Of a stretch of 64,000 bases of DNA, positions 28,412 through 60,284 are shown one piece after another. The translations under genes and the position numbers were made by a program. Below the pieces are notes generated by a model, which worked only from the letters and a program-made list of their open reading frames with translations, made no database searches and was not told the origin of the DNA. The stretch is from Turritopsis dohrnii. Lineage: Eukaryota; Cnidaria; Hydrozoa; Anthoathecata; Oceaniidae. Numbering within the stretch: position 1 is the stretch's first letter; each line of letters opens with the position of its first letter. The DNA is taken from positions 1-64,000 of the forward strand of contig BQMF02000199.1 of the NCBI GenBank assembly GCA_027922465.2, read 5' to 3'.

Positions 28412-30675
28412 ATGCCTGGTCCTACGAAGAAAGAAATGCTGGAGGCCCGCGGAAAAACTTAACATCACCAACAAAGATATTAATAGAATAACTAGCCGCC
28501 AAGGCGGCGTCGCTCGCCGCCCATGTCCACCTCTGCTCTGTATCACTGTATCAATAAACGTCAAATTTCCTTATAAACGGCTCGTACACAACTTGTGTTC
28601 AACCAGAAGCATATTCGAAGTCACAACCTCTGATAAAACCAATCTTTTATCAGTGTAACAATACACTGAAAACGTAGAGAGAGAAAACTTCAACTTTTTA
28701 TTAGCTTTTGTTTTAAAAAAGTTACGCGCTCTAACATGGGTGCTATCAAACATAAGGGGGAAATGGTTTCTCTTTTTAAAAAGATCACACGGGAGGAGAG
28801 AAAAAAAGCACGTGTTAAATGAATAAATCGAATAAAAAAACGTTCGATCAGAACGCTTAACAATTAAAAGAAGAAATTAATTTATTAAAAGAAAAGCAAT
28901 AATAAAAAAAAAATAAAAATTTTGTTTTGATATGATACTCTTTTTTTACCTATCGGTTTTTAAACATTTTGATTGCTCAAAAAAAAGTTCACCCGTCTCA
29001 GACAGTCAGGCAAGAGTTTGTGGCAAACCGAACATATGCTGCCACGTTCTGCCACTGCTGCTTTTTGTCCAAAATGTTTAATCAGTTAGTTTCTTTGTAT
29101 TTAGTTGATGTACTGTTTTCAAAGCCAAGTCAACGTGGAATATAAAACTAACAATAATGATAAAAACAAAACGTTATTCCTATTAGTTCATCAGCCAAAA
29201 AAAGTCACGTTTGATTGGGGTTGCAATGTATTTGCTTCGAACTCACGTCGCACACAAAAAAAGAAATAATTTCGCTCACAACTTCATCTACCATTTTGCG
29301 TCACTTACAAACAAACAAGCAAACAGACAGAGAATCGGCTATTAATATATAGAAGGAAAGTTTAATTGAAATCAAGGAACATGCTATCCAGCGTCTGTTG
29401 GAAGAAAACCAACATCTAAATAAAGAAGTTAAAACCCTTTCGGATAATGTTTATGCCTTGGGGGCTGAATCATATGCCAATAACCAGTACAATAACCAGT
29501 ACAATCAGCGCAACAATGTCGAACTGACAATAAGCTTGAGCCAACTATTGTCAACATCCTCAGTGCAGTCCAAATTAATGTTACTGCAACCGAAATTGAA
29601 GCCTGCCATCGCCTTAATTCCAAGGAATCGAACAAACCTGTTATAATCCGCTTTGTATATAGAAAGAATGTGGATAAGTGCTTCAATTCATGGAAGCTAC
29701 TTGATACTTGCGATAAAACAGATTTTGGTTTTCCTGAAAACACTAAACTATCATTTAACGCGAATTTATAGCCTGGAAAGCTCGCTGCCTTAAAAGAGGA
29801 GAACGTATTAACAAAATATACACAAACAATGGTCTCGATCAGCATTAGAAATAAAGACAAATTGACCCATGACAGTATCATCGAAGATAAAAATTGGGGT
29901 TAGGAAATTTTTCCTCATATCTTGGTGTGGTCCTTGATGGAAATCTCAACTGGCGCCAACATGTCAATACCCTTGCAATTAGGCTGCACAGAGCTAATGG
30001 AGCACTATGTAAATTAAGACATTATGACCCCAAACGTACCTTAATCTCTATCTATCATGCTGTCTTTTCGTCATATCTAGGCTATACTTGTCAAACTTGG
30101 GTCAGCGTGAGACAACTAATACTAAAAGTATCCTCATACTGCAAAAGGCAAAAGATCCGAATCTTAACCTTCTCAAATCCTATTGCACCCTCTCGGCCTC
30201 TTTTCAACAACCTTAAATTACTGAATATCTTTGACCTTGTCAAGTCATTGAATATTCTATTTATTCATCAAGTCTTAAATTTTTAACTCCCTCCCAGCGT
30301 TCATAGTACTCTCAATTACACTAAACTCTGCCATACTTTCAACACCAGAGGTAAGTCTCATGGGCACCTACATCAACCTTCAGTTAAAACTCAAGCATTT
30401 GGAATTGCTTCAATGAAATTTCAATCAATTATTTGCTGGAATCATATGCAAAGTCAATATCCAAATCTTGATCTAGCTTTAGTAAACTATTATCAACTAA
30501 AAACCTTAACCACAAAATTCTTCCTGGAAAAATATACCATCTAGTCTCACTCTCCAGTAGTTTTGTTTTTCATACTTAAGCCATTTTTGTTTTTTATCCA
30601 ATACCTAAATTTCTTAATTTAGTTTATTTCTTTATTTATTTGGTGGCCACCCCCTTTGTTTAGTATTAGGGACCT
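28412..30675 (+). pseudogene. Internally deleted LINE: ORF1 fused to RT C-terminus
   Basis: ORF1 starts MPGPTKKEMLEARGK at 28412. After removal of Helitron C the frame continues NITNKDINRIK, ESLIEIKEHAIQRLLEENQ (a coiled coil), later TATEIEACHRLNSKESNKPV, IIRFVYRKNVDKCF and FGFPENTKLSFN, with frameshifts. At about 29890 it passes directly into the ORF2 C-terminal region: SSYLGVVLDGNLNWRQHV, RLHRANGALCKLRHYDP, IYHAVFSSYLGYTCQTW and NLKLLNIFDLVKSLNILF. Endonuclease and the RT catalytic core are absent. The 3' UTR shares TTGGTGGCCACCCCCT with the LINE at 54.9 kb, so both belong to one family. Confidence 0.8.
28492..29353 (-). mobile_element. Helitron C (family 2), inserted in LINE ORF1
   Basis: On the minus strand it starts TCTATATATTAATAGCCGAT and ends with a GC-rich hairpin (GGCGGC...GCCGCC) and GGCGGCTAG, then T. 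The same 5' end starts Helitron D at 48569. Removing 28492-29353 joins ...AATAGAATA to AAGGAAAGTTT and leaves LINE ORF1 open through the junction, so the borders are exact. The base 5' of the element on its own strand is T, not the usual A. No ORF of note is inside. Confidence 0.85.
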
Positions 30676-38334: not shown

Positions 38335-41300
38335 GATGTTTAATGTAAGAGGCACTAATATTATTCCTGGCTTCCAAGCAGTTTTTAGGAATGGTCAGTT
38401 TGTTTTGCAGCCACCTGATCAACAACAAATGCGCTCTGTTATTCAGCGTAGGCATGCAAATGAGGATGTAGCTGAAGCAAGGCGCAGACAGTTTCAGGCA
38501 AATAACATCCATTATCAGAAAATGAGATACTTAGAAGCAACAATGCTCAAAGGCAAGTTGATTATCGTCAAGATGGAGAGCCAGGTGAAAGATTAGCCAG
38601 GCAGAATGAGAATACGCAACGTATGAGGGCTAGGCGGCTGATGCTAATCCCCCTTTGCATCGTGCTGCTCGACAAGACCAATTGCTTGAGCTACATTATC
38701 TTGGTGCCATGGACAAGGTCTGTCAGTTTTTTGGTGCTAACATGTTTGCTGGCGAGACCAATTTTAAGTGTTGTCACAAAGGTAAAGTTCATTTAGATGA
38801 CATTTATTATCCTAATGATCTTAAAGAACTTTTAGTAGGTGATTCTAATCAATCAAAGAACTTTCAAGAAAATATTCGAAAATTCAATAGTTCAGTTGCT
38901 TTTGCTTCTATGGGTGAGAAATTGGCTGTACCGCCAGGACGTGGGCCACCAGTTTTTTGTATTAATGGCCAGGTATGTCACCGAACAGGTAATTTGCACC
39001 CACCACCGGGCATTCCTCCATCCTTTGGTCAATTATATATCTATGATGGTATGGATGCATTCAATGAGAGAATGGCAAGACCAGAAAATCAAGGTTGTTC
39101 TCCTGAAGTTATGCAAACTTTGCAAGACATTATTTAAGGGAGAGTCCATATGCAGCTGCTTACAAACACATGGGTGATGTAGAAGCTGAGAAATTTGAAT
39201 TTGCAAATCAACAAAATCGTCGCCCATCTGAGGTAAATGGAAAATGCGTAAATTAATAATTAAAAATCTTTGAACTAATATTTCCAGATCTTTGCTATTG
39301 TTTTCCAGGTCAGAATGCATTTGAGAAGTGGTGGTGACCGGCGTCGATACAATCTACCTCACCATGATGAAGAAGCTGCTATTTTTGTTGGTGAAGATGG
39401 TGTACCACCATTGGCTAGAGACATCGTTGTTTACCCTCGAGATAGACCCTTGCAGGATTTGCCTGTTCATTCACCTAATGTTGATCCAATGTATTTTTTC
39501 CAAGAGGAGAGATGGGTTGGAGTTCCGCCATTCCACATGTAGCAGAATATGCAACAGGCCAGCAACACCGTACGACCATGCTGCAATACTATACTTATAG
39601 GTTTGCATTTAGAGATGCTTTTAACCCCATAAAAAAAAAGATTACTTCAACAATATGCTGTAGATTGTTACTGCAAAGTTGAATCTGACCGTCTTAATTG
39701 TGTTCGTCAAAACCAGGGCAATTTCCGTGTTGATCAATATCAAGGGCTCATTGATTATCTTGGAAATGTTGCAGAAAATTATGGCCTTCATGCAGGCAGA
39801 CCAGTGATTCTTCCGTCTTCTGTTAAGGGTGGTCCTAAAGCCATGCAACAGAATTATCAAGATGATATGGCTATGGTTACTGAAATGGGCAAGCCGGATT
39901 TGTTTTGCACATTTATCTGCAATCCAAAATGGAGAGAGATCACAGAAAACTTAGATAATGAGCCTGCACATTATCGTCCAGACTTGATTACACGTGTTTT
40001 CAATTTGAAATTAAAAGAGCTTTTGGAGGATATATGTAAAAATGGTGTTTTGGGAAAAGCCATTTCTCATTTGTATGTTATTGAATTTCAGAAACGTTCT
40101 TTACCTCATGCTCATATTCTTATCCATTCAGCACAAGAGGACAAACTGCGTAATGCTGATGACATTGACAGCTTAATTTCTGCTGAAATACCAGATCCTG
40201 AACAGGAACCAGAACTTCATAATATCATCAAGTCATGTATGATTCATAGTACCTGTGGGAATGCTAACCCTCACACAGTTTGTATGGGAGATGATGACAA
40301 CTGCACCAAGGATTTTCCAAAGCGGTTTTGAGAAGCAACCCAAATGAAAGCAAATGGGTATCCACTTGGTTGTCCGAGAAGTATAATGCTCACATAAATT
40401 TGGAAGCATGTACCACGATCAGGAGCGTGAAATATCTCTTCAAATATGTTTATAAGGTGCTAATGTGGAGATTGATGAACGTTTGGAACATGACGAAATA
40501 AAAACATTTCTGGATGGTCGATATGTCAGTGCGCCTGAAGCATTATGGAGAATATTTGAGTTCTCTTTGCATGAAAAATCGCATACTATTAAGCGATTAG
40601 CTGTTCATTTACCTGATCGTCATCAAGTTTATTTTAGAGCTGGCGAAGAAGAGGCAGCTGCTGAAGGGGCATTAAACGATAGTCCTAACAGCATGGTTTA
40701 ATCTGAATGTAGACGATCCTGATGCACGGCGCTATCTTTACTCAGATTTTCCGTATCATTATGTCTTTCATGATAAAGAGAAAAAATGGCAAAAACGAAA
40801 AAGAACATTTAAGCCTATAGTCGCTCGGTTATATAATGCTCAACCATCAGAAGGAGAACGTTTTTTTCTTCGAGTTTTGCTGCTACATGTTGCAGGTGCT
40901 ACGTCTTTCGAGGATTTGTCTACTTTCGATAAAGTGGTTTACGACACATTCAGAGAAGCATGTAATACCAGACGTCTTCTCCAAGATGATGCAGAATGGC
41001 ACAATACATTGGAAGAGGCTTCAGCGTTTCAAATGCCCCAACAGCTTAGACAACTGTTTGTTACTATTTTGATTCACTGTGAGCCTTCCAATCCTCTTGA
41101 ATTGTGGAATACATTCAAGGGGAATCTGTGTGAAGACTACCTTCGAACATTGGCTGGTGCTCAAGCTGAGCAAAGGGTTTTAGGTTATATTGATAATGTC
41201 CTGAGACAATTTGGCATGACTTTAACACAGTTTAATCTTCCTGAATTGGTTCAACAGGTTGCTCAGGAAGAAGATGATATGAATATTTACATCGTAAGGG

Positions 41301-42690
41301 CTGAACAGGTAAGGCCTTTGCCTAACGAACAGCAGTTAGTTGTGGCAGACGCCATTTTGTCTGCAGTTTCGAATGTGCATGATGGTTTAGCACAAGTTGA
41401 AACATTGTTTTATTTGGACGGACCGGCAGGCACAGGTAAGTTTTTTACATACAGTTATGTTATTGCAGCATGCAGAGCCAGAGGTTGGAAAGTTGCTACT
41501 GCTGCATATACAGGTATTGCAGCCACCTTACTGTCTGGTGTTTGTACATTGCACTCATTATTTCGTTTGCCTGTTCCTGTTTTAGAAAATAGCGTATGTA
41601 ATATAACACCAGCATCGAAACATGCAGAATACCTTCGAAGTGTCGACCTGTTTCTGATTGATGAAGCGACTATGGTTTCTACCCATGTTTTCCATGCTGT
41701 GCCAAGATTACTCAAGGATATTTGTGGCAGTGATGCACTTTTTGGTGGCAAGGTTCTTTTGTGGAGTGGAGATTTTCGTCAGTATTTGCCGGTTGTGAAA
41801 AAGGGAAAGCCAACCGATGTTATTGAAGTTTGCTTGACCAGTTCTGTGTTATGGGCATCAGTGGCGAAATACTCTCTCACTGAAAATATGAGAGCCAGAC
41901 CGGAAGAGCAAGAATTCTGTACTTGGCTGTTGCAACTTGGTAACGGTGAACTTCCAACCAAACAAAACGAACATGCTAAAGGTTCCATCAAAATTATGTA
42001 CGATGGACTGGAGCCTCACAAATGTGCCACCACAGCCATTCTGACACCCACAAATGAGCAATAGTTGATCATTAATAATGAGGTGTTTGACAGACTGCCT
42101 GGAGATGCAGTTTGCTATTACAGTGCTGATGAAGTGGCGTGTGACGATGAAGAAGAGCAGTAAAACTATCCGGTTGATTATCTGAATAGTATTACACCAT
42201 CCGGTATGCCTCCACATTGTTTGAAACTTAAAGTTGGGGCTATTATTATGCTTTTGAAGAATCTGAACATGTTATTGGAGGGGTCTTTGTAATGTCACCC
42301 GCTTGATTGTTTGTGAATTGTCGCATAACTTTATTAAGGCTGAAGTTTTGACAGGGTCAGCAGTTGGGGAAATGATTTTTATACCTAGAGTACAATCGTC
42401 ACCATACGAGACAGGTATGCCTTTTGTATTGAAGCGCAGACAATTTCCTATTCACTTGGCGTAATCTTTTACTATTAACAAAAGTTAAGGTCAAACATTT
42501 GAAAAAATTGGTTTGTTTTTGTAGAGACCGTGTTTTTCACATGGACAGTTGTATGTTGCCTGTTCAAGGGCAAAAGCATTTAGTAATGTTAAAATCAAAG
42601 TTGCTGGTAGGGGTAAGCAAGGTTATATTAATGGAAAGATGTATACTCAAAATGTTGTCTTTCCACAGGTGTTGCTGTGAATGTTTGATT
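38335..42690 (+). pseudogene. Helitron Rep-helicase, near full length, multiply inactivated
   Basis: The protein is spread over several frames. N-terminal: MFNVRGTNIIPGFQAVFRNG and an Arg/Gln-rich part; zinc-finger-like CQFFGANMFAGETNFKCC; Helitron_like_N segments LHPPPGIPPSFGQLYIYDG and VRMHLRSGGDRRRYNLPHH. Rep part: IDYLGNVAENYGLHAGRPVI, LPSSVKGGPKAMQQNYQD and FQKRSLPHAHILIH with the HUH pair HAH at 40106-40114. YLFKY at 40433-40447 supplies the two-Tyr motif. PIF1-like helicase: Walker A DGPAGTGKFF at 41418 (the usual Thr after Lys is Phe), Walker B LFLIDEATM, WSGDFRQYLPVV, LTENMRARPEEQEF. After a TAG at 42062 homology continues through [20 protein letters not shown] to YVACSRAKAFSNVKIKVAGR at about 42600. 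Many stops and shifts occur. The element would have replicated by a rolling-circle mechanism. Confidence 0.85.
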
Positions 42691-42960
42691 GTTGTGGCCT
42701 ATTTGGTTATATAACAAAATAGCATAAATACCTACAGTAGAGGCTACAGTTGATTTTTTGTGGCTTCTTCTGTACGTCAGCCACTGTTTGATGTTGTGGC
42801 TTATTACCAGTATAGTTTAAATACCTACAGAGGGGCTGCTGCTGATAGTTGTTGTGGCTTTTTCTGTACGTCAGCCACTGTTTGATGTTGTGGTTTATTA
42901 TAAGTGTATCGTAAACATTTGGTGTGGCCACAGTTGATAATTGTTGTTGTTTGGCAACTT
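42680..42960 (+). repeat. Tandem repeat, about 95 bp, three partial copies
   Basis: Units share TGTTGTGGCTT, TCTGTACGTCAGCCACTGTT, TTGATGTTGTGG and AAATACCTACAG. It lies just downstream of the Rep-helicase C-terminus. Confidence 0.75.
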
Positions 42961-43157
42961 TGTACCTAATGAACAGTCTGTATGTTTTGTTGTTTTTTAG
43001 GTGGAGTACAAGTCCCATTGACTCACGTTCACGTCGTGTACTCCGTTACCATGAATTGTTCCTGAAGGATACTTTGTGAACAATTCATGAACCAATAGTC
43101 AGGTCATGCTCCATATTATCTCTCCATGATTGTAACTTTTGTTTTTTCTCCATTTAG

Positions 43158-44458
43158 TGATATAAATATAATTACCATGGCAGATGATTTTGAAGGCCCC
43201 ATGGAATTGTCCCAGGGTAAAATATTTTCTTTAACTTTCTATTAAAGTAATTAAAATACTGAAAGCCTATTGATTTAATTTCAGGAACAGAAGATAGATT
43301 ATTAGAAGGAGGTAAAATTGTTTGTTTGAGAAAAATATTTCTACAGAGCATTCATTCTCATACTCTTATGATGTTTTAGACTTTTCTGTATGCTACCATT
43401 ATAACATCATCCTTTCCTTCAATAGATACTGATAATATAGAGGATGCAGAAAGGAGTAAGGATTGTTATTGAAACTCTTTTGGTTTTAAATGTTTTCTAT
43501 TTATTTTCTCTTCGGGTTTTTTTGTTGGTTTTTGTGAAGTTTATGACAGCTACTTTTGAAACCTTTTTTATTTAGATGCTTCTTAAACAGCTAACAGTAA
43601 GGGTCAATATACATTAATGTCTCCTTTCCATATGTTGTAGCTTTTACAATATCCCTTTATATACTACTTTGTCAATGATGTATTTGCGCTTTCTGTATGC
43701 TGCTATTATAACACCATTCTTTCCTTCATTAGATACTGGTAACATAAAAAATGTGGGAAAGGGTAAGGATTGTTATGGAAATGATCTCCTATATTATACC
43801 AATCAAGTTTACCATTCATCCTAATGTTTTAGATATTCAAATGTATTTTTTTATCAAAATCTACTACTGCTCTTTTATGAACACTAATAACATCTTCTTT
43901 TACTTTATTTGATACAGATACCAGTGAGAATCTTGAAAAGAGTAAGGATTATTACTTTATCCAGTTATTGTCATCTACTGAACCCAGTAAGTTTTCAGTG
44001 TATGCATAGTTTTTGTATAACAGTTACTTTTTAAACCTTTTTTTTATTTAGATGAAGCTTTACCAACGACTGATAGTAAGATTTCATTTCATTGTTAGTA
44101 CAACATGTTTTAACTTTCACAATCACTTTATTTTATTTCATTTAGCTGCATCATCATCACATTATCGTGTGCAGCCAAAAGTAATGTCTTATAACTTACA
44201 ATAATAATATTAACAATATAATATAGGTCAAGAAATTATTTCATTATGATCAAATTCTTCATTTTTTAGTTGGTGTCTTGGCTGCTAAAAGAGAATGTAA
44301 GTTTCCATCAATACGTATTTATTGTTTATTTATAGTTATTTAATTTCTTTACTAATAAAAATTGTAAAATTGTAGATTCATACCAAGATTTCGTACACTA
44401 TTGCCGTAGTCACCCTGGCCCCCGGTCTCAGTCGGCATTCCGGGCCTGGAAGAGATAA
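43158..44458 (+). CDS. Micro-exon gene: ten short exons, mostly phase 1-1
   Basis: Exons with AG acceptors and GT donors: 43158-43216 (ATG at 43177, MADDFEGPMELSQ), 43285-43311 (27 nt, TEDRLLEG), 43426-43455 (30), 43576-43596 (21), 43733-43762 (30), 43918-43941 (24), 44052-44075 (24, EALPTTD), 44146-44180 or 44166, 44270-44296 (27, GVLAAKRE) and 44376-44458. The last exon encodes SYQDFVHYCRSHPGPRSQSA then FRAWKR and TAA. Nearly every internal exon fits 3n with phase 1 at both ends, so any subset can be spliced in frame. Exons 3 and 5 and their flanking introns are duplicates 307 bp apart, and exons 4 and 7 are also related. Exon 4 reads a TAA in that phase, so it is either skipped or the gene is decayed. 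The N-terminal part is acidic and the C-terminus basic with His and Cys. I recognise no family. Confidence 0.5.
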
Positions 44459-46340
44459 GGGGGTCGGGACCACCCCAATTTCAAAAAGTCTAAGCGTCCA
44501 AAAAGTCCAAAAAAATAGTATCTGTAAAACCTGTACAGTCCAATGAAGGTGTATTGGCTGAAAATAGACACTACACAATATATAATAATTTTGCCCCATC
44601 AGCTTTCAATTCATTCAAGTGAGTACACAGTTCTTTGTGTTAATCATTTGGTTGAGCCTTAGGTGAATGAATATGTGATGAACATTTTCATAAGGGCGCC
44701 TGTAAATTTAACCTTGAACGCCTAAGGCCTTCATGACAAAATAAATAGACTCATTAAAATGAATTGAAAACTGATGGTGGCATGAAACTACCATACATAG
44801 ATAAGGTCTTCTGAAATGTTTCATTGTTCTTCAATAACAATACGTATTTCAATACACAATAACGCTATGATACAAGCAGTTGTATGGTTGTTTCATAGCA
44901 ATGTTTATGTTATTTAAGAGTATAGTTATCTTATTAGAATAAAGTTATTTGTTTCAATGTCTTTTGCTTATCTCTTTCATCACAGTATCCTAGCATTCTA
45001 GCTTTCGCACTGTCAATTTACTAACCTAAGATTTGTGTTTAGTTCTGTCTGTCACTCTATCAATTAGTTAAAAAACATTCACTAAGAATGCTCTCTGTCA
45101 CAATGATATTTTGACGATTTTGCACAATGGGTTACAGATCTGATTAATGGAGTGCCATTTCTTTGAAGTGATACGGCTTTTGTCATTGTAAATACAAATG
45201 AACATTTGCTTTGTTTTGTTTGCTTAGATTCCAGTCAGTTTTTAAGGCTACTTTAACATGATTATTTGTTCTCTGCATGCAGTAGATGATTATAAGTTTA
45301 GAAACATTATAAAGATGTATACTGTTAGTTTAGATGTGAAGGGAAAATGGCGAGTCAGATTCAAACTCATCCTTCAAGCTTATTTTTTTGCTATTCATAA
45401 TTTATTTTTTGATTACATTTACAGATTGGCAGCAACGAATTATTGGAGACGGCCTCCTTATCCATTGCTCATGATATTTATTTCATCAAACATTTTGTCT
45501 ATGCGAAGTTCGAAATAATATCATTATCGTTACCTCACCAACTTATTTCGAAGTTCAATGATGTATGAAATGGCTATTTAAATGTCGTAGAAAATGGTTA
45601 ATGCTTAATCAAAACGTTATTTAATACACCTTTCTGATGAACATATTTTATTTTACTTTCGTATTGCAATCAGTAATAATTTATAAAATATATGCCTTTG
45701 CTAACTACAACAGACACATATTCTTTATTAGCAACTGTAAAAACCTTTTACACTGGATGCAGAACAGGGTTTTTGACAAAAGTTTTGGCGGGATGTGTGA
45801 TACTAAGATATTATTTATGCTATGGCTATTAAATCTGAATTATTCATGAGAATTTCTGTTACTGTTCTAAGAAACCTAAACCTATCACTCTTTTTACCTC
45901 AAGCACTGCCAGAACCTTATTTTCATGGTCTTTTAATATATTCTTTTGTGGCTAATATTATAATAAGATGGTTGCAGTGTAATGTCATGGTTTAAATCAT
46001 GATGTTGGTTTTGTTGGTGAAGATCATTATATTCATTGAAAGGATTTGCTACTCTGATGTTGCATTAGTGGAAAGAATCATCACTGGAAGGTATCCGATT
46101 CTTCATCATTGTGTTTCGTATATTTAAGAATAAAGTGCAGTTATAAAAGCTAATTTGTATACCTAAGTATAAAGTTATTATGTTAATGTTTGGTTCTTTC
46201 CAGAGAACAATTTTATTATACTACTTTTATTTTACTACTTTTATTTTTCATGAACTGGACGCTCCCATACATTGTTTTGATCAGTTTTTCAAGCTCTACA
46301 ACATCAGTACACTTTCCAGTCCCGATTCCGTAATTGAAAT
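44459..46340. other. AT-rich stretch between micro-exon gene and Helitron termini
   Basis: No supported gene was found. The minus frame at 44378-44599 overlaps the last micro-exon and has no similarity. The region could be the 3' portion of Helitron X, whose terminus lies at 46380. Confidence 0.4.
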
Positions 46341-46380: not shown

Positions 46381-48568
46381 TCTTATTATAATAATCCGCG
46401 ATTGTGTGTCACACTTTTATTTTAGAGAGTGATATATTTACTTTTTTTTCACGGTCAAAACCTTCTTATTTTTTCCCTTTTCGTCGTAAAACCACGCCAA
46501 AGCGACAGACACTTTTTTTCATTTTCCGCGATTAGTATATGCTCCTCCGTTTTGTTGTTTTTGGTTTGCGCACTGGAAATCAGCCGAAAAACGTCTTTGG
46601 AGGAGTGCGAGCAATGCAATGTTAATCGTTCGAAATTTGTCAACGATCATTTCGTGAGCAAGAAACTTCGCGAAGAAGACGTGTTTCTTTTTGTATACGA
46701 ATATTTTAATTTAAATTTGATTGTTTTAGGCAGCAAATCGACGAAAGAACTGACGAAGAAACACAGGTTTGTATGCACGAAGGTATTCTTATTATTATAA
46801 AACGTTTTATTATCGTTTGTTTACAATGAAAAATCATATTTAGATATACAGAAGAAGTGCAGTGAAGTTTTTAAAAGATCGAACGAACAAAAGGTATTAT
46901 TATAAAACTGTTACTTTTGATTAATAAAAGAACAAGTTAGGTATATGTATTTGTATTTAAATGTATTTAAATGTTTGTTTACGTTTTAGTTATCAAATAT
47001 CGCTATACAGAAGAAAGTGTAGTGAAGAAATGCAGAACAAAATGATGTTTATTTACACAGTAAGGAATGGTTTTAATTTAGTTTTGAAAGATTAGATACT
47101 GTAGCTTTGAATAGATATCTTATTTTATGAGTTCTTTCTTTAGTTTATATGCTACTGGATGAAAAACGAAGACGAGAGTAATTTGTTTTGGTAACGCGCG
47201 CTATTATTATTTTTATAGTTAGCAAAGAAGATTTGATTTGATTTATTTATTTACAGATCAATTAAAAATGGTCCCACAGCTATGACTGTTTTCCTTCTTT
47301 CTCATGGCTGTGGAAGTAGGGAACGTGTTATGCTGTCAAATTGTATCTATTGACGATGTTTGATGCTTTGTCTGCATGCCTTTCTGCCAGCCATTTATGC
47401 CTTTTGTTTTGGTTTGCTTAAATATGGTTGCAGTAGTAGTAAGTATTGTAATTGTTCTTTACTGAAATCTTTTAGGTCAGAAAAGAAAAAGTGTAGCTAT
47501 TTATAAACGAAATTATAAATGTATAAATGAAACACATGGTATGTTGAGAAGGTTATTTAAGAAAGAAGCATTGCTGGGGTTTATTTTTCTTCAGTTTATA
47601 TTTGTTGACGGCATTCATTATTTTGTGTTATGTTAATTGCTACATACATACTTGCTAGGTATATAAGTTTAGCATTATATTTTTATTTGTTGCTTTTAAT
47701 ATCTTCTGGGTATTTAATTATGGTTTTGGTCAAAGTAGGGCATTTTGTTGTTTCAATTATTTTTATTAATTTGATATTTGGTTGTGTATGTCAGGTAAAA
47801 GTCTTTATTCTGTTCAGCTCCAGTGTTGAGTGAACCCGTATTGACTCACAGTATCGGTTGACTTTATAGACCAAATTTTGTTTTTAATTGTTATCTTTAG
47901 GATAAATGCGTACTTGAATTTTCTTTTTGTTTTTTCTTTCTTTTTGTTTTATTTTTTATTTCAATATTGTTATAGCATGATAAGGTTTTCGGTATTACAA
48001 TTCAAGTATTAATTTTTTAGGTAATAATAAAAAAAGCATAAAGAAATGAAACTCATGGTTTTAATCATGACGTTGATGGTTTTGGGAAGAACAGACTACA
48101 TATCATTTCAAAAATTCATTAATGGTTGCAGTCGAGTAGTAACTTTGGAACAAAAGAAAAAGTTGGAAGGTATCAATTTGTTTTGAATTAACATTTTGTT
48201 ATGTTTGGTTTTGTATGTCTGGGTAAACAGTTCTGTGTTATATATTGCCATTTTTTTAACATTAATTTTACTTCTCTTCTGCGTATAAATATATTATTCT
48301 GAGCCATGTTGCTATTTGTTTCTGTTATTAATCTTCTGAATGTAAGAAATGAATTAAAAAATTAATGTGTGTAGAAAATTTTACACGAGTTAAATTTCGC
48401 AACACAACGCATACTGAACATGGGTGGCGAGCGACGCCGCCTGGGATCTTTTTGAGTTGCGATTCTATCATTTATTTTTTCGTCACGGGGTACGTACACG
48501 GGAATGGTGGATTTGACCTAATGTTTTCGAAATTAAGTTCGGTAAAAAGTTTTTACCCGGGATACTAG
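46381..48568 (+). mobile_element. Helitron A (family 1, non-autonomous)
   Basis: It begins TCTTATTATAATAATCCGCG directly after the CTAG of Helitron X and ends with GGTAAAAAGTTTTTACC, CGGGATACTAG at 48568. Length is 2188 bp. Much of it aligns with Helitron B: the 5' 400 bp, AAGCATAAAGAAATGAAACT and the last 300 bp. An apparent frame near 46550-46720 (LEECEQCNVNRSKFVND and SKKLREEDVFLFVYE) is shared with B and may be a captured exon. Near the 3' end a GGCGAGCGACGCCGCC stem resembles the family-2 terminal hairpin. No transposase is encoded. Confidence 0.85.
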
Positions 48569-49408
48569 TCTATATATTAATAGCCGATTCTCTGTTTGTT
48601 TGTTTGTTTGTGCGTTTGTTTGTAAGTCACGCAAAATGGTACATTGAGTTGTGAGAGAAATTATTTCTTTTTTTGTGTGCGACGTGAGTTTGAAGCAAAT
48701 ACATTGCAGCCCCAATCAAACTTGACTTTTTTTGGCTGCTGAACTAATAGGAATAACGTTTTGTTTTTATTATTATTGCCAGTTTTATGTTCCACGTTGA
48801 CTTGGCTTTGAAAACAGTACATCAACTAAGAAACTAACTGATTAAACATTTTGGACAAAAAGCAGCCATGGCAGAACGTGGTAGCATGTTCGGTTTGCCA
48901 GTGTATCCTAACGTATCCTTGCCTGACTGTCTGAGACGGGTGAACTTTTTTTTCGAGCAATCAAAATGTTAAAAAAGCTATAGGTAAAAAAAGAGTATCA
49001 AAAAACAAAATATTTTTTTTTTTGCTTTTGTCATAATAGTTGTCTTAATTTGTTTTAATCGATTTCTTTTAATCTATTTTAATCTGATCGAACGTTTTTT
49101 TATTCACTTTATTCATTTAGCACGTGCCTTTTTTTCTCTCCTCCCGTGTGATCTTATTAAGAAGAGAAACCATTTCCCCCTTACGTTTGATAGCACCCAT
49201 GTTAGAGCGCGTAACTTTTTTAAAACAAAAGTTAATAAAAAGTTTTTATACGTTTTGAGTGTATTGTTACACTGATAAAAGATTGGTTTTACCAGAGGTT
49301 GTGACTTCGAATCTGCTTCTGGTTGAACACAAGTTGTACGAGCCGTTTATAAGGAAATTTGACGTTTATTGATACAGTGATACAGAGCAGGTGGACATGG
49401 GCGGCTAG
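48569..49408 (+). mobile_element. Helitron D (family 2, non-autonomous)
   Basis: It begins TCTATATATTAATAGCCGAT directly after the CTAG of Helitron A and ends GGACATGGGCGGCTAG at 49408, followed by T. It aligns along its length with Helitron C read on the minus strand (shared CAGTCAGGCAAG complement, GTGTTAC.CTGATAAAAGATTG, GATACAGTGATACAGAGCAG). Relative to C it lacks about 22 bp at the terminal hairpin, consistent with deletion between two GGCGG repeats. Confidence 0.85.
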
Positions 49409-49439
49409 TTCTTATAATTAGCATCACTTCTGACTTTAA

Positions 49440-53076: not shown

Positions 53077-56000
53077 TCTTATTATAATAATCCGCGTTGT
53101 GCATCCCACTTTTATTTTAGAGAGTGACATATTTGTTTTTTTTTTCACGGTCAAATCCTTCTTATTTTTTCCCTTTTTGTCGTAAAACCACGCCAAAGCG
53201 AGAGTGATTTTTTTGATTTTCCGCGATTAGTATATGCTCCTCCGTTTTGTTATTTTTGGTTTGCGCACTGGAAATCAGCCGAAAAACGTCTTTGGAGGAG
53301 TGCGAGCAATGCAATGTTAATCGTTCGAAATTTGTCAACGATCATTTCGTGATCAAGAAACTTCGCGAAGAAGACGTGTTTCTTTTTGTATACGAAATTA
53401 AAATTGATTGTTTTAGGTAGTTTCTGCGAAAAAACGTATCGTGAAGATTGAACTAACAAGTGTGGAAGCAAATCGACGAAAGAACTGAAAAAAAATTAAG
53501 TTTCGGGATCGTTTTCTTTTCGGGTTTATCAAGTAGAGTACATTATTGTTTACAGTGCAGAATGTACAAGAATCTTTTACTTATTTACTAACTTTACTTA
53601 TTATAATACCTTTCCTTTTTTGTTTCTAGAACTTAAAAACGGATGCCTGCAGAAAGATCTTTACTCAGGTAAAATGTTTTTGTTTTTTTATCGTTTTCGT
53701 TGAGCTACCACTTCGTAGAGATTTAATTAAGAAGTGGACATTAATATACGAAAAACTGATTGTTTTCTTCGTTAGCATATCAGTAGAGAAAGACGAAAAA
53801 GAAAGAAAAACTTTACGGGGCGAATAACTTGGATGTGGAGCATCGTTGTTATTGTTAACAACAGCATGCTTAGCAAAGGTGATGTTACTTATTATTATTC
53901 TGTATTATTATATTGTTCTGTTATTTACAAAAACAAAAATGGTTCCAGAGTTGTGACCATGAGGCAAGCGTAAGCTGTTGCTGTTGAAAGGCTCTTTGGC
54001 TGTAGCTACATCATACATGATCTTTATAGATTTTATTCATTTAAGCGTATTTTTACTTTTTAAATGTGATTATAGTGTCTTCTTCTGCATGGTTTATTCA
54101 TTTAGATTTGTTCCTTTTTCACAAGAAAGAAAGTAAACAAATAAACGTCATTTAAGGAAAGTATCTTTATATTATGAGTTTGGGAATACTTGGGTATTTA
54201 GTTTGATCATGTTCTCCTTCGTCATCCAGCTAATAATTATTCACTGTTGTTTCATGTGTAATGTATCTCTGTCTGACTTTCCGACTATTATCAGCATCAT
54301 AATTTGAATTTGTTTTTAATAATGCTCCCAGTGGATGTATATACCTGTATTTGTTTACGCGACATTCTAATTCATGGAATTTTTCTTATTTTTATATTTT
54401 TTCATGTTAATGCATTATTTTGTGTTATGGTAATCGTTTACGTACTATGCCTGGGTAATTAACTTTGGCATTATGATTTTATTTGTGACTTCTGGGTAAA
54501 TTTTTGTTCTTAGTTATTGTTTTTAGGATAAATGCGTACTTGAATTTAATTTATTTTTTATTTTTTTTGTTGTTGTTTATTTCAATATTCTTACAGCATG
54601 ATTAGGTTTTCGGTATTACAATTGAAATATTATCCTTTTAGGTAATAATAAAAAAAGCATAAAGAAATGAAACTCATGGTTTTAATCATGACTTTGATGG
54701 TTTTGGGAAGAACAGACTATATATCATTTCAAAAATTCATTAATGGTTGCAGTCCAGTAGTAACTTTGGAACAAAAGAAAAAGTTGGAAGGTATCAATTT
54801 GTTTTGAATTAACATTTTGTAATGTTTGGTTTCGTATGTCTGGGTAAACAGTTCTGTGTTATATGTTGCCATTTTTTTTTACATTAAAGTTACTTTTAAC
54901 CAAAATTTCTGGAATCTACGTTCATTGAAATCCCTCAAAACAGACGAGGTAATCTTTTGATTGCCTCAGTATATCGCCACCCCAATGCTTATTGAAGAGT
55001 TTAACAATGACTACGTAATTCCTCTCCTTGAAAAAACTAGCAGAGAGAAAAAAACTTTAATTTTGCTTGGTGACTTTAATATTGACTTGCTAAAATCTGA
55101 CATCTCTCCTTATTCTAATTTTCTTGATACATTAGGCTCTTTCTCTTTCTTTTAAATTCATCAAATATCTTGGAGTGTATCTTGACGAGGATCTCTCTTG
55201 GAAAAAACACATTCATGAGCTATCAATTAAACTTCGACGAGCCAATTGTGCATTGAGTAAAATCCGCCACCTTATTCCTGAATCTGTCTCTTTATCTGTT
55301 TATCATTCTATTTTTTCTTCTCATCTTCGTTATGGTTGCCAAGTCTGGGCCTTACACAAGTCTACTTACAATAAACGCATTCTCCTTCTTCAAAAAACAG
55401 CTGCTCGCCTTATTACCTTTTCTTCTTTCAGATCTCACTCTAAACCACTCTTTTCAAAACTTGGCTTGCTTTCCATCTTTGATTTAACAATAACTTTAAA
55501 TATTCTATTCATTCATCAAATTCTTAATCATAGGATTCCTGATCACATTCATAGTGCTTTAAATTTCTACGCTATACCTCACAATGTCAATACTAGAAGC
55601 AAATCAGCAGGCTCCCTATTTAAACCTAGTGTTAAAACCAAATTGTATGGATTAAACTCATTTACATATCAATCTGTATCCTGGTGGAATTACTTTCAAA
55701 CAACTTTTAGCCATCTCGACCTAGCTTCTCTTTCATATAACCAACTTAAAAACCTTCTCACTGACTTCTTTCTTAACAAATATGCATCCTGTGATTAACT
55801 TTTCACTACTGGACAACCACTTATATTAATATTATTTTATTATTATTTTTTATTTATTTATTTATTTATTTTTTATTTATTTATTTATTTATTATTTATT
55901 TTATTTATTTATCTATCTATTTATTTATTTATTTTTTTTTTTTTGATTGTATGATTTTGCATTATATTTGTTTTATTTTCTTGTTTACTAGTATAATTGA

Positions 56001-56442
56001 TTGTTTTGGTGGCCACCCCCTGTGTTTAGATTTATCTATTGGGGTGGTCTCCTGTCACCACTTTATCTTGATGTAATCACCCTACCATTGTGACAAATAA
56101 ATGAATATTCTATTCTATTCTATTCTATTCTATTCTATTCTATTCTTTTCTTCTGCGTATAAATATATTATTCTGAGCCATGTTGCTATTTGTTTCTGTT
56201 TTTAATCTTCTGAATGAAAGAAATGAATTAAAAAATTAATGCCTGTAGAAACTTTTACACGAGTTAAATTTCGCAACACAACGCATACTGAACATGGGTG
56301 GCGAGCGACGCCGCCTGGGATGTTTTTGAGTTGCGATTCTATGATTTATTTTTTCGTCACGGGGTACGTACACGGGAATGGTGGATTTGACCTAATGTTT
56401 TCGAAGTTAACTTCGGTAAAAAGTTTTTACCCGGGATACTAG
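53077..56442 (+). mobile_element. Helitron B (family 1) with nested LINE
   Basis: The element starts TCTTATTATAATAATCCGCG after A53076 and ends GGTAAAAAGTTTTTACC, CGGGATACTAG at 56442 before T, the expected A|T target. Without the LINE at 54898-56144 it is about 2.1 kb, close to Helitron A. No transposase is encoded. The frames ending at the terminus (56239-56442) match one in A only because the terminal sequence is conserved. Confidence 0.9.
54898..56144 (+). pseudogene. Internally deleted LINE: endonuclease fused to RT C-terminus
   Basis: The 5' part encodes the end of an AP-type endonuclease: FIEIPQNRRGNLLIASVYRH, a two-base frameshift, then FNNDYVIPLL and KKTLILLGDFNIDLLKSD (the GDFNID active-site Asp). 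At about 55150 it passes directly into FIKYLGVYLDEDLSWKKHI, the region after the RT core, and continues open for 200 residues to NKYASCD, including SVYHSIFSSHLRYGCQVW. The RT catalytic core is missing. The 3' UTR has TTGGTGGCCACCCCCTGTG and a (TATTC)n tail. CTTTT flanks both sides (54893-54897 and 56145-56149) as a likely target duplication. Confidence 0.85.
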
Positions 56443-56718
56443 TCTAATATAATGATGCAGTTAATATTTGTTCTGTATATATGCTGTGTTAATCTCAAAA
56501 AAAAAACTATTTTATTCAGCTTCTATTCTTCTATCCACCTTTGGTTAAAATGTTTAATGTAGGCTAATTTTGGTGTTGGGAGTTCAAAGTAGCTTACTGG
56601 AAATGAACGTTGATCTCCCGGGATGCATTCGTCCGTAAATCGGGTTATTCCGAGAAAAATCGGGGAATCGGAATTCTTATTGGAATCCACAAGGTTGAGC
56701 CGTACCTATAAAATGATG

Positions 56719-58766: not shown

Positions 58767-59903
58767 TTACAAATATTTTTTAAAGTACTTTGTGATAGTA
58801 TCGTGGACTTGAGTGCACTCAGATGTGTTGTACGAGTAAATTCTATCAATGATAGGTATATTGCGTCGTTCTTCTGTCATAACTCGTTCCACTTCCTCTT
58901 GATGGATGTCGATTTTTCTTCGCTCACAAAAATTATGCAAAACGAAGCACGCGTGTATAACGATCGGGGTAAAATCAAGGTTTAAATCAATTGGTCGCAT
59001 CAGTATCCGCCATCTTGCTTTCAACCGTCCGAATGCACATTCGATTTGGTTTCAAGCAGAACGCAGCATTTGGTTGAACGCAACTTCTTCATTCATATTA
59101 CACGACTCGTACTCTTTCATGCAATGTGGCAAAAGTGGGTAGGCGGGGTCTCCAAGCAATATCTGGGGAACGCATTCTTCTCCTGGAATCAACTCTTTAT
59201 AAAACAAATCGAACTTTTTATTTGTATAGTTATTTTGAACTTTGGAATTTGCAAAAACTCTGGCATCGTGCACACAACCCAGCCATTTTATATCAGCGTC
59301 AATAAAATGACCATTATGATTGCAAATAGCTTGACAGTTAAGCGTGTATTTCATCTTGTAAGAAAAATAATCTTGGGCATTTTCCATGGGTCGTTTTATT
59401 GGGATTTGAGTGCCATCGATACATCCGATTGCTTGTGGAAAACCAAATCGTTCATTAAACCCATCTGCTGCTTTCGAAACTTCCTCCTTTGTTACCGGGT
59501 ATTTGATATATTCCGCGCCTAACTTCTTGGCAAAGATCTCACATATTTCTTTCAATGTCACTGACAAAGTTGACTTTGAGCATCCAAATACATTACTGGT
59601 CATGCGAAGGGACCCTTGATCCTTTAAAAAATATAAAGTCATAGCCACCCTTTTCTCCAGACTTATTACATCTTGTCGAACTCTGTTAGATCTTATCTTA
59701 GCGTATGGTCTCACCATATTTACCAACTCCGTGAAATCTGCGCTAGACATACGCAAATTTGCTTTCCACTCTTCATCTGGTGCTTTTCCTGATTCCATAT
59801 TTTGCCACCATTGATCTGTTCTACCTGGTTTGATCCACACCGATCTTTTTCTCCGCATGTACCTTAAAATCAAAACACAGTTTCCAACGTTTCCCAACAA
59901 CAT
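58767..59903 (-). pseudogene. Harbinger 2: DDE transposase, intact except one stop
   Basis: The frame runs 378 sense codons from ATG 59903 to TAA, broken only by TGA at 59052-59054. Motifs: WWQNMESGKAPDEEWKANLR, a helix-turn-helix stretch SLRMTSNVFGCSKSTLSVTL, AIGCIDGTQIPIKRP (first Asp), IKWLGCVHDARVF (second Asp region), ILLGDPAYPLLPHCMKEY, then after the stop NQIECAFGRLKARWRIL (catalytic Glu). The C-terminal ACFVLHNFCERR is also typical. Length and order fit a complete PIF/Harbinger transposase. A TGA where CGA is likely (SA-stop-NQIECAF) would be a single C-to-T change at a CpG. Confidence 0.9.
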
Positions 59904-60284
59904 TCTTACACAAAAATAAATCAGGCATTCGCAATAAATTTTTACCTTAACCTTATTCGTCGATATCTAGCCAACGGTAGCTAAAACAGCTAAAACAGCT
60001 TCCTTTAAAAGTATACTTCTTTGCCTGTGTTGTTCTTCCAATTGCATCAAAACTACTACATGTAACTGCATAAGAAGGGATGCAATTGTTAAAATTGTTG
60101 ATAAAGTTGCAGTTAAAAGTGCAAATTTTCGCTGTTCAATAGCCATCTTTCTACGCGTTTATTCTTTTATCAGCTCTTTTCAAAAAATAAAGTTCAGTTT
60201 CGATTTATCATATGCAAGGAGAGTAAAAGCCCATTTCATCCCGGGATGAAACTACTCATCCCGGGAAGAAATTAACACGATTGT

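Follow-up and report, generated by a model that had tools for sequence, protein, structure and literature searches.

The stretch of DNA analysed here (the window) comprises 64,000 nucleotides. On its forward strand, positions 43158-44458 hold nine splice-bounded stretches of 40, 27, 30, 21, 30, 24, 24, 35 and 27 nt, together with a terminal coding exon of 80 nt. Acceptors and donors were scored with generic animal splice matrices. The features of the locus are listed below, the exons being predicted ones.

38634..42682, + strand: Helitron Rep-helicase reading frames (Helitron_like_N, PIF1), with stops and frameshifts towards the end
43177..43216, + strand: exon e1, with an ATG in ACCATGG and 40 coding nt, read as MADDFEGPMELSQ plus 1 nt
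43285..43311, + strand: exon e2, 27 nt, phase 1-1
43426..43455, + strand: exon e3 (A1), 30 nt, phase 1-1, within the duplicated unit 43368-43474
43576..43596, + strand: exon-like stretch e4 (B1), 21 nt, phase-1 reading AS*TAN with an in-frame TAA
43733..43762, + strand: exon e5 (A2), 30 nt, phase 1-1, within the duplicated unit 43675-43781
43918..43941, + strand: exon e6 (A3), 24 nt, phase 1-1
44052..44075, + strand: exon e7 (B2), 24 nt, phase 1-1
44146..44180, + strand: exon-like stretch e8, 35 nt, phase 1-0, with a good acceptor (8.4) and a weak donor (score <4)
44270..44296, + strand: exon e9, 27 nt, open in both phases 0 and 1
44376..44458, + strand: terminal exon e10, 80 nt (44376-44455) plus TAA in phase 1, acceptor score <4
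44460..44493, + strand: candidate Helitron 3' end, a GC-rich hairpin with a 13-nt spacer and CTAA followed by G, not T; not diagnostic

The earlier note on this DNA had described at least nine splice-bounded exons of 21-40 nt within 1.3 kb, nearly all of phase 1-1. Nine such stretches do exist, but e4 contains an in-frame TAA, and e8 has a weak donor and breaks the phase. The phase pattern holds for six (e2, e3, e5, e6, e7 and e9), each divisible by three in length and free of stops in phase 1; e4 is not open, e8 is of phase 1-0, and the last exons are open in two frames. With a stricter donor cut-off five phase-1 micro-exons are left instead of six, the donor at 44075 scoring only 4.7.

If e4 and e8 are omitted, a choice made since they do not fit, the remaining eight exons join into a stop-free 282 nt (94 residues). 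An alternative donor of A3 gives a longer exon (43918-43986, 69 nt, phase 1-1) that is likewise open, and with it the stop-free join grows to 327 nt (109 residues). The introns of the core model measure 68, 114, 277, 155, 110, 194 and 79 nt, and an AATAAA is found at 44740, 282 nt 3' of the stop. Further acceptors would shorten the two omitted stretches: one at 43591 would cut e4 down to an open 6-nt exon, and one at 44175 would leave 6 nt of e8.

Both ends of the model allow more than one reading. The 3' reading frame is ambiguous: both phase 0 and phase 1 are open in e9 and in the last exon, so that DFVHYCRSHPGPRSQSAF represents one of two alternatives; use of e8 would move the last two exons to phase 0, in which they are open as well, e10 for 56 codons to a TGA at 44544-44546. 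The transcript may begin further upstream than e1, because a good acceptor precedes it (43158, score 7.6), and with entry in phase 2 the part of e1 before its ATG is open as well. An island of 61% GC amid AT-rich DNA (44391-44480), ranking among the highest 0.18% of 90-nt windows, takes in most of the terminal exon and the hairpin that follows. The RNA fold of this GC-rich exon gave a z of -1.02. In the window as a whole, an Rfam scan returned nothing at gathering score and a tRNA scan (bacterial setting) returned no tRNA.

The Helitron upstream of the array is a dead copy, because stops and frameshifts interrupt the helicase near its end. A unit of about 100 nt occurs twice in tandem behind the helicase reading frame (42682-42908, 78.5%), and 43050-43089, in the Helitron 3' region, forms a perfect 12-bp hairpin stem with no CTRR behind it. 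Just 3' of the array, 44592-44624 recurs imperfectly in inverted orientation at 44749-44782 (about 85% over 34 nt). Elsewhere in the window, 28492-29353 (- strand) and 48569-49424 (+ strand) are two copies, 86.7% identical over 871 columns, of an apparent non-autonomous Helitron, one end of which carries TC and the opposite end CTAG before TT; the copy at 28.5 kb retains a GGCGGCG/CGCCGCC hairpin before CTAG, where the copy at 49.4 kb has lost about 21 nt. Three segments of about 350, 400 and 305 nt, 91-96% identical, recur in the same order at 46381-48577 and 53077-56451, the second set being more widely spaced.

Duplicated units and excess over chance

Unit A consists of 58 nt of intron, a 30-nt exon and 19 nt of intron, and its copies at 43368-43474 and 43675-43781 are 80% identical over 107 nt. 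A third, more distant copy (43887-43954) matches 43401-43468 of A1 at 75% over 68 nt; over the same 68 nt the identities number 55 for A1-A2, 51 for A1-A3 and 49 for A2-A3. Exon A has kept phase 1 open in each of its three copies. Where A1 and A2 have the AG of their acceptor, A3 reads TG, and its acceptor lies exactly 6 nt downstream, which makes the exon 24 nt long instead of 30 and keeps the phase. Unit B (43542-43578 and 44016-44054) is 87% identical over 39 columns, and the clear likeness of the 43576/44052 pair lies almost wholly in the upstream intron and ends 3 nt into the exon. The claim that exon-plus-intron pairs are duplicated (43426 with 43733, 43576 with 44052) is borne out, the second pair being nearly all intron. 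Since the order is A1-B1-A2-A3-B2 and the two A-to-B introns are 120 and 110 nt long, the array suggests, as far as the order of events can be inferred, that an A-B pair was copied and that an extra copy of A was added later. An exact-pattern scan with the exon A boundary found no occurrence in the genome contig set and none in the viral contig set.

Substitutions between the copies say little about selection. The ten differences between exons A1 and A2 are all transitions, compared with 5 of the 11 flank differences; such small numbers bear no interpretation. Inside the similar unit the exon diverges more than its flanks (Fisher p 0.033), although the ends of that unit were chosen by similarity; with wider flanks, the added part of which barely aligns, the difference vanishes (p 0.68). 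For the three A pairs pS is 0.55-0.70 and pN 0.28-0.30 on about five synonymous sites, with pN below pS in all three. A signature of accelerated exons was therefore dropped. Codon counts this low cannot reveal coding constraint, and no conclusion for or against selection is drawn.

To compare the array with its surroundings, non-overlapping exons of 15-75 nt were counted whose length is divisible by three and which lack stops in the phase considered. The array region holds six such exons in phase 1. Elsewhere, in 18366 sliding windows of 1420 nt taken every 20 nt on both strands and in three phases, the maximum is two; 641 of them hold two, 3833 one and 13892 none. Six were reached in none of 9000 simulations (three Markov models with 3000 sequences apiece, best phase each), nor in any of the 1000 simulations of an earlier Markov run. 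For the chance test four is a fairer count than six, because each duplicated exon is then counted once. The number of acceptor-donor pairs without the frame rule is less striking than the in-frame count: the region has 7, where 1300 nt contain 1.28 on average, and the tandem repeat at the window start has 13. There, at 1-1115, a 563-nt segment is tandemly duplicated with 97.5% identity. The exon array is real as sequence, and it likely belongs to a gene.

A proposed host gene and the competing readings

We give about an even chance to the reading that the array belongs to a small gene of the host, a cnidarian-like animal, with symmetric micro-exon cassettes enlarged by local exon duplication, just 3' of a dead Helitron. 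The middle of this gene would be a row of 24-30 nt phase 1-1 exons, grown by local duplication of exons with their introns; on the simplest course the A-B pair was doubled (giving A1-B1 and A3-B2), and a further copying of exon A produced A2. Gain, loss or skipping of an exon, or a shift of its acceptor as in A3, would alter the protein by about 8-10 residues per cassette, and start and stop would stay in frame because every open cassette is symmetric. B1 with its stop might be left out in splicing, contribute a 6-nt exon, or function as a poison exon. The symmetry and duplication of the micro-exons support the view that in-frame skipping would be permitted; a variant-making role of the array is a guess. 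Short introns go with intron definition, where exon skipping is less usual, and the introns of the array (68-277 nt) point to this mode.

The predicted product, of 94 or 109 residues, is hydrophilic (GRAVY -1.0), with an acidic front (pI 4.05), a basic tail (pI 10.17) and one cysteine; it would probably be intracellular and disordered. By a simple hydropathy measure it has no signal peptide or membrane helix, because the best 15-residue hydropathy is 0.41, and that stretch lies away from the N terminus. Neither of the two joins matched a Pfam family at E 1, and a PDB search gave one row at E 0.95, which is no relative. A protein search with the 109-residue join found one candidate with shared words and none at E 10 or better; this search requires shared five-residue words and would miss a fast-evolving relative.

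As to the host group, the best 120 of 474 relatives of the helicase are headed by a metagenome protein (53%); Hydractinia, Hydra and Clytia (37-52% identity) lead the named organisms, ahead of insects, a nematode, a spider and plants. Among the best 120 of 440 relatives of a harbinger transposase at 59055-59966 the top one reaches 76%, Hydractinia 50-61% and two stony corals 49-51%. For both transposons the nearest named relatives are hydrozoan, and the host is probably a cnidarian close to the hydrozoans, although transposons can move between species. The viral contigs held no confirmed relative of the Helitron helicase, and the genome contigs none of the LINE reverse transcriptase.

A host gene is favoured by the six phase-1 exons with their excess over all 9000 simulations, the stop-free join of 282 or 327 nt from ACCATGG, the unit duplications, the 6-nt shift in A3, the similar A-to-B introns and the AATAAA. 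Against it stand the lack of a homologue in these searches, the stop in B1, the phase break at e8, the ambiguous 3' frame, the weak terminal acceptor, the few codon counts and the p of 0.68 with wider flanks. Several of these points would also suit a decaying fragment of a larger host gene rich in micro-exons, severed when the Helitron inserted or through duplication, which is possible but doubtful. This reading could account for the in-frame TAA in B1, the phase break at 44146, the weak terminal acceptor and the unclear 3' end of the array, as well as for an acceptor at 43158 that no known exon precedes and a dead Helitron immediately upstream. However, eight exons still join stop-free over 282 nt, and phase 1 has stayed open in all three copies of exon A.

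The earlier note had placed the array between a Rep-helicase and a Helitron 3' end and had considered that it might be Helitron-borne. The helicase is indeed found upstream, as a dead copy, and directly behind the stop codon of the array follow a GC-rich hairpin, a 13-nt spacer and CTAA, so that the array could be cargo captured between the helicase and an end at 44493. But the base after this CTAA is G, not T, motifs of its class (hairpin plus CTRR) number six on the + strand of the window, and a canonical 3' end (CTRRT with a strong hairpin) is found nowhere on that strand. Helitron-borne status is thus not supported; we hold capture to be quite unlikely and think that the array is probably not inside the element. 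A fusion of helicase and array was considered separately and rejected: splicing from a donor at 42613 to the acceptor at 43158 in the helicase frame runs into a stop within three codons.

Decidedly unlikely is a secreted, variant-generating product like those of schistosome micro-exon genes, with a signal-peptide exon upstream of 43158, beyond or inside the Helitron. The exon design and the duplicated cassettes would suit it, and the acceptor of 7.6 before e1, together with phase 2 entry into the sequence upstream of the ATG, would leave room for such an exon. On the other hand, a Kozak-like ATG lies within e1, the predicted product has no hydrophobic segment, and no upstream exon was found, the listed donors of at least 5.5 in 42500-43160 being all in helicase sequence. 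Chance assembly in AT-rich intergenic DNA, where splice motifs are common and a chance exon could be multiplied by duplication, is extremely improbable, given that with copies counted once four same-phase units were reached in 7 of 9000 simulations (0, 3 and 4 per Markov model) and in 0 of the 18366 other windows.

Comparison with known small-exon genes

Runs of small symmetric exons are found in the micro-exon-coded variable tip of troponin T and in the phase 1-1 exon arrays of the tropoelastin type; the N-terminal part of troponin T is acidic and the protein intracellular. The likeness of the array to these genes lies in exon design and, for troponin T, in the acidic front, whereas its product has no sequence match in Pfam or PDB. 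With gene capture by Helitrons, in which the cargo lies between a 5'-TC end and a 3' hairpin plus CTRR before a T, the array shares the position beside a Rep-helicase, but it differs in that enclosing Helitron ends, 5' or 3', are not established. The exons of the cytoplasmic tail of Hydractinia Alr receptors were also considered, and the literature search found no usable paper on them; nor was a paper on a cnidarian micro-exon array found in the open-licence literature searched.

Among cnidarian genes with small exons, the SA8 toxin genes of sea anemones offer a likeness, with 3-5 microexons (PMC10210398). SA8 products, however, are secreted and cysteine-rich and are encoded by few exons with large introns, whereas the array encodes a product with one cysteine and no signal peptide in many symmetric cassettes.

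The closest parallel in design are the micro-exon genes (MEGs) of schistosomes. In the passages drawn on here, about 80% of their coding region lies in symmetric exons of 6-36 bp (PMC5825161), their products carry an N-terminal signal peptide and are secreted (PMC4350168, PMC10526429), and their introns range from 100 to almost 5000 bp (PMC10526429). The array resembles them, as far as these passages describe them, in its short symmetric exon rows, repeated exon patterns, small product and absence of relatives outside the group. The likeness claimed in the earlier note stands for the size and symmetry of the exons and stops there. Six symmetric exons of 24-30 nt account for 162 of the 282 coding nt (57%), below the share in MEGs, two of the seven core introns are shorter than 100 nt and none is long (68-277 nt), the predicted product lacks a signal peptide, and the source is cnidarian-like. 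The array may work like a MEG, but we do not class it as one, and we regard it as a gene prediction, a lead rather than a proven variant-making gene.

Freely skippable symmetric micro-exon genes are seemingly restricted to flatworms in the passage cited (PMC4350168). It is unlikely, in our estimate, that the array represents such a gene outside the flatworms, that is, an independently evolved cnidarian cassette array that would furnish a small intracellular protein with dozens of isoforms by means of duplicated phase-1 micro-exons, an alternative donor (24/69 nt), in-frame acceptor shifts and a 35-nt exon that switches the frame, both C-terminal frames being open. Should a cnidarian gene share the MEG-like design, this strategy of protein variation would have a convergent origin; and an array in which the copying of units is still legible in the DNA would, if the reading is true, show how such arrays begin.
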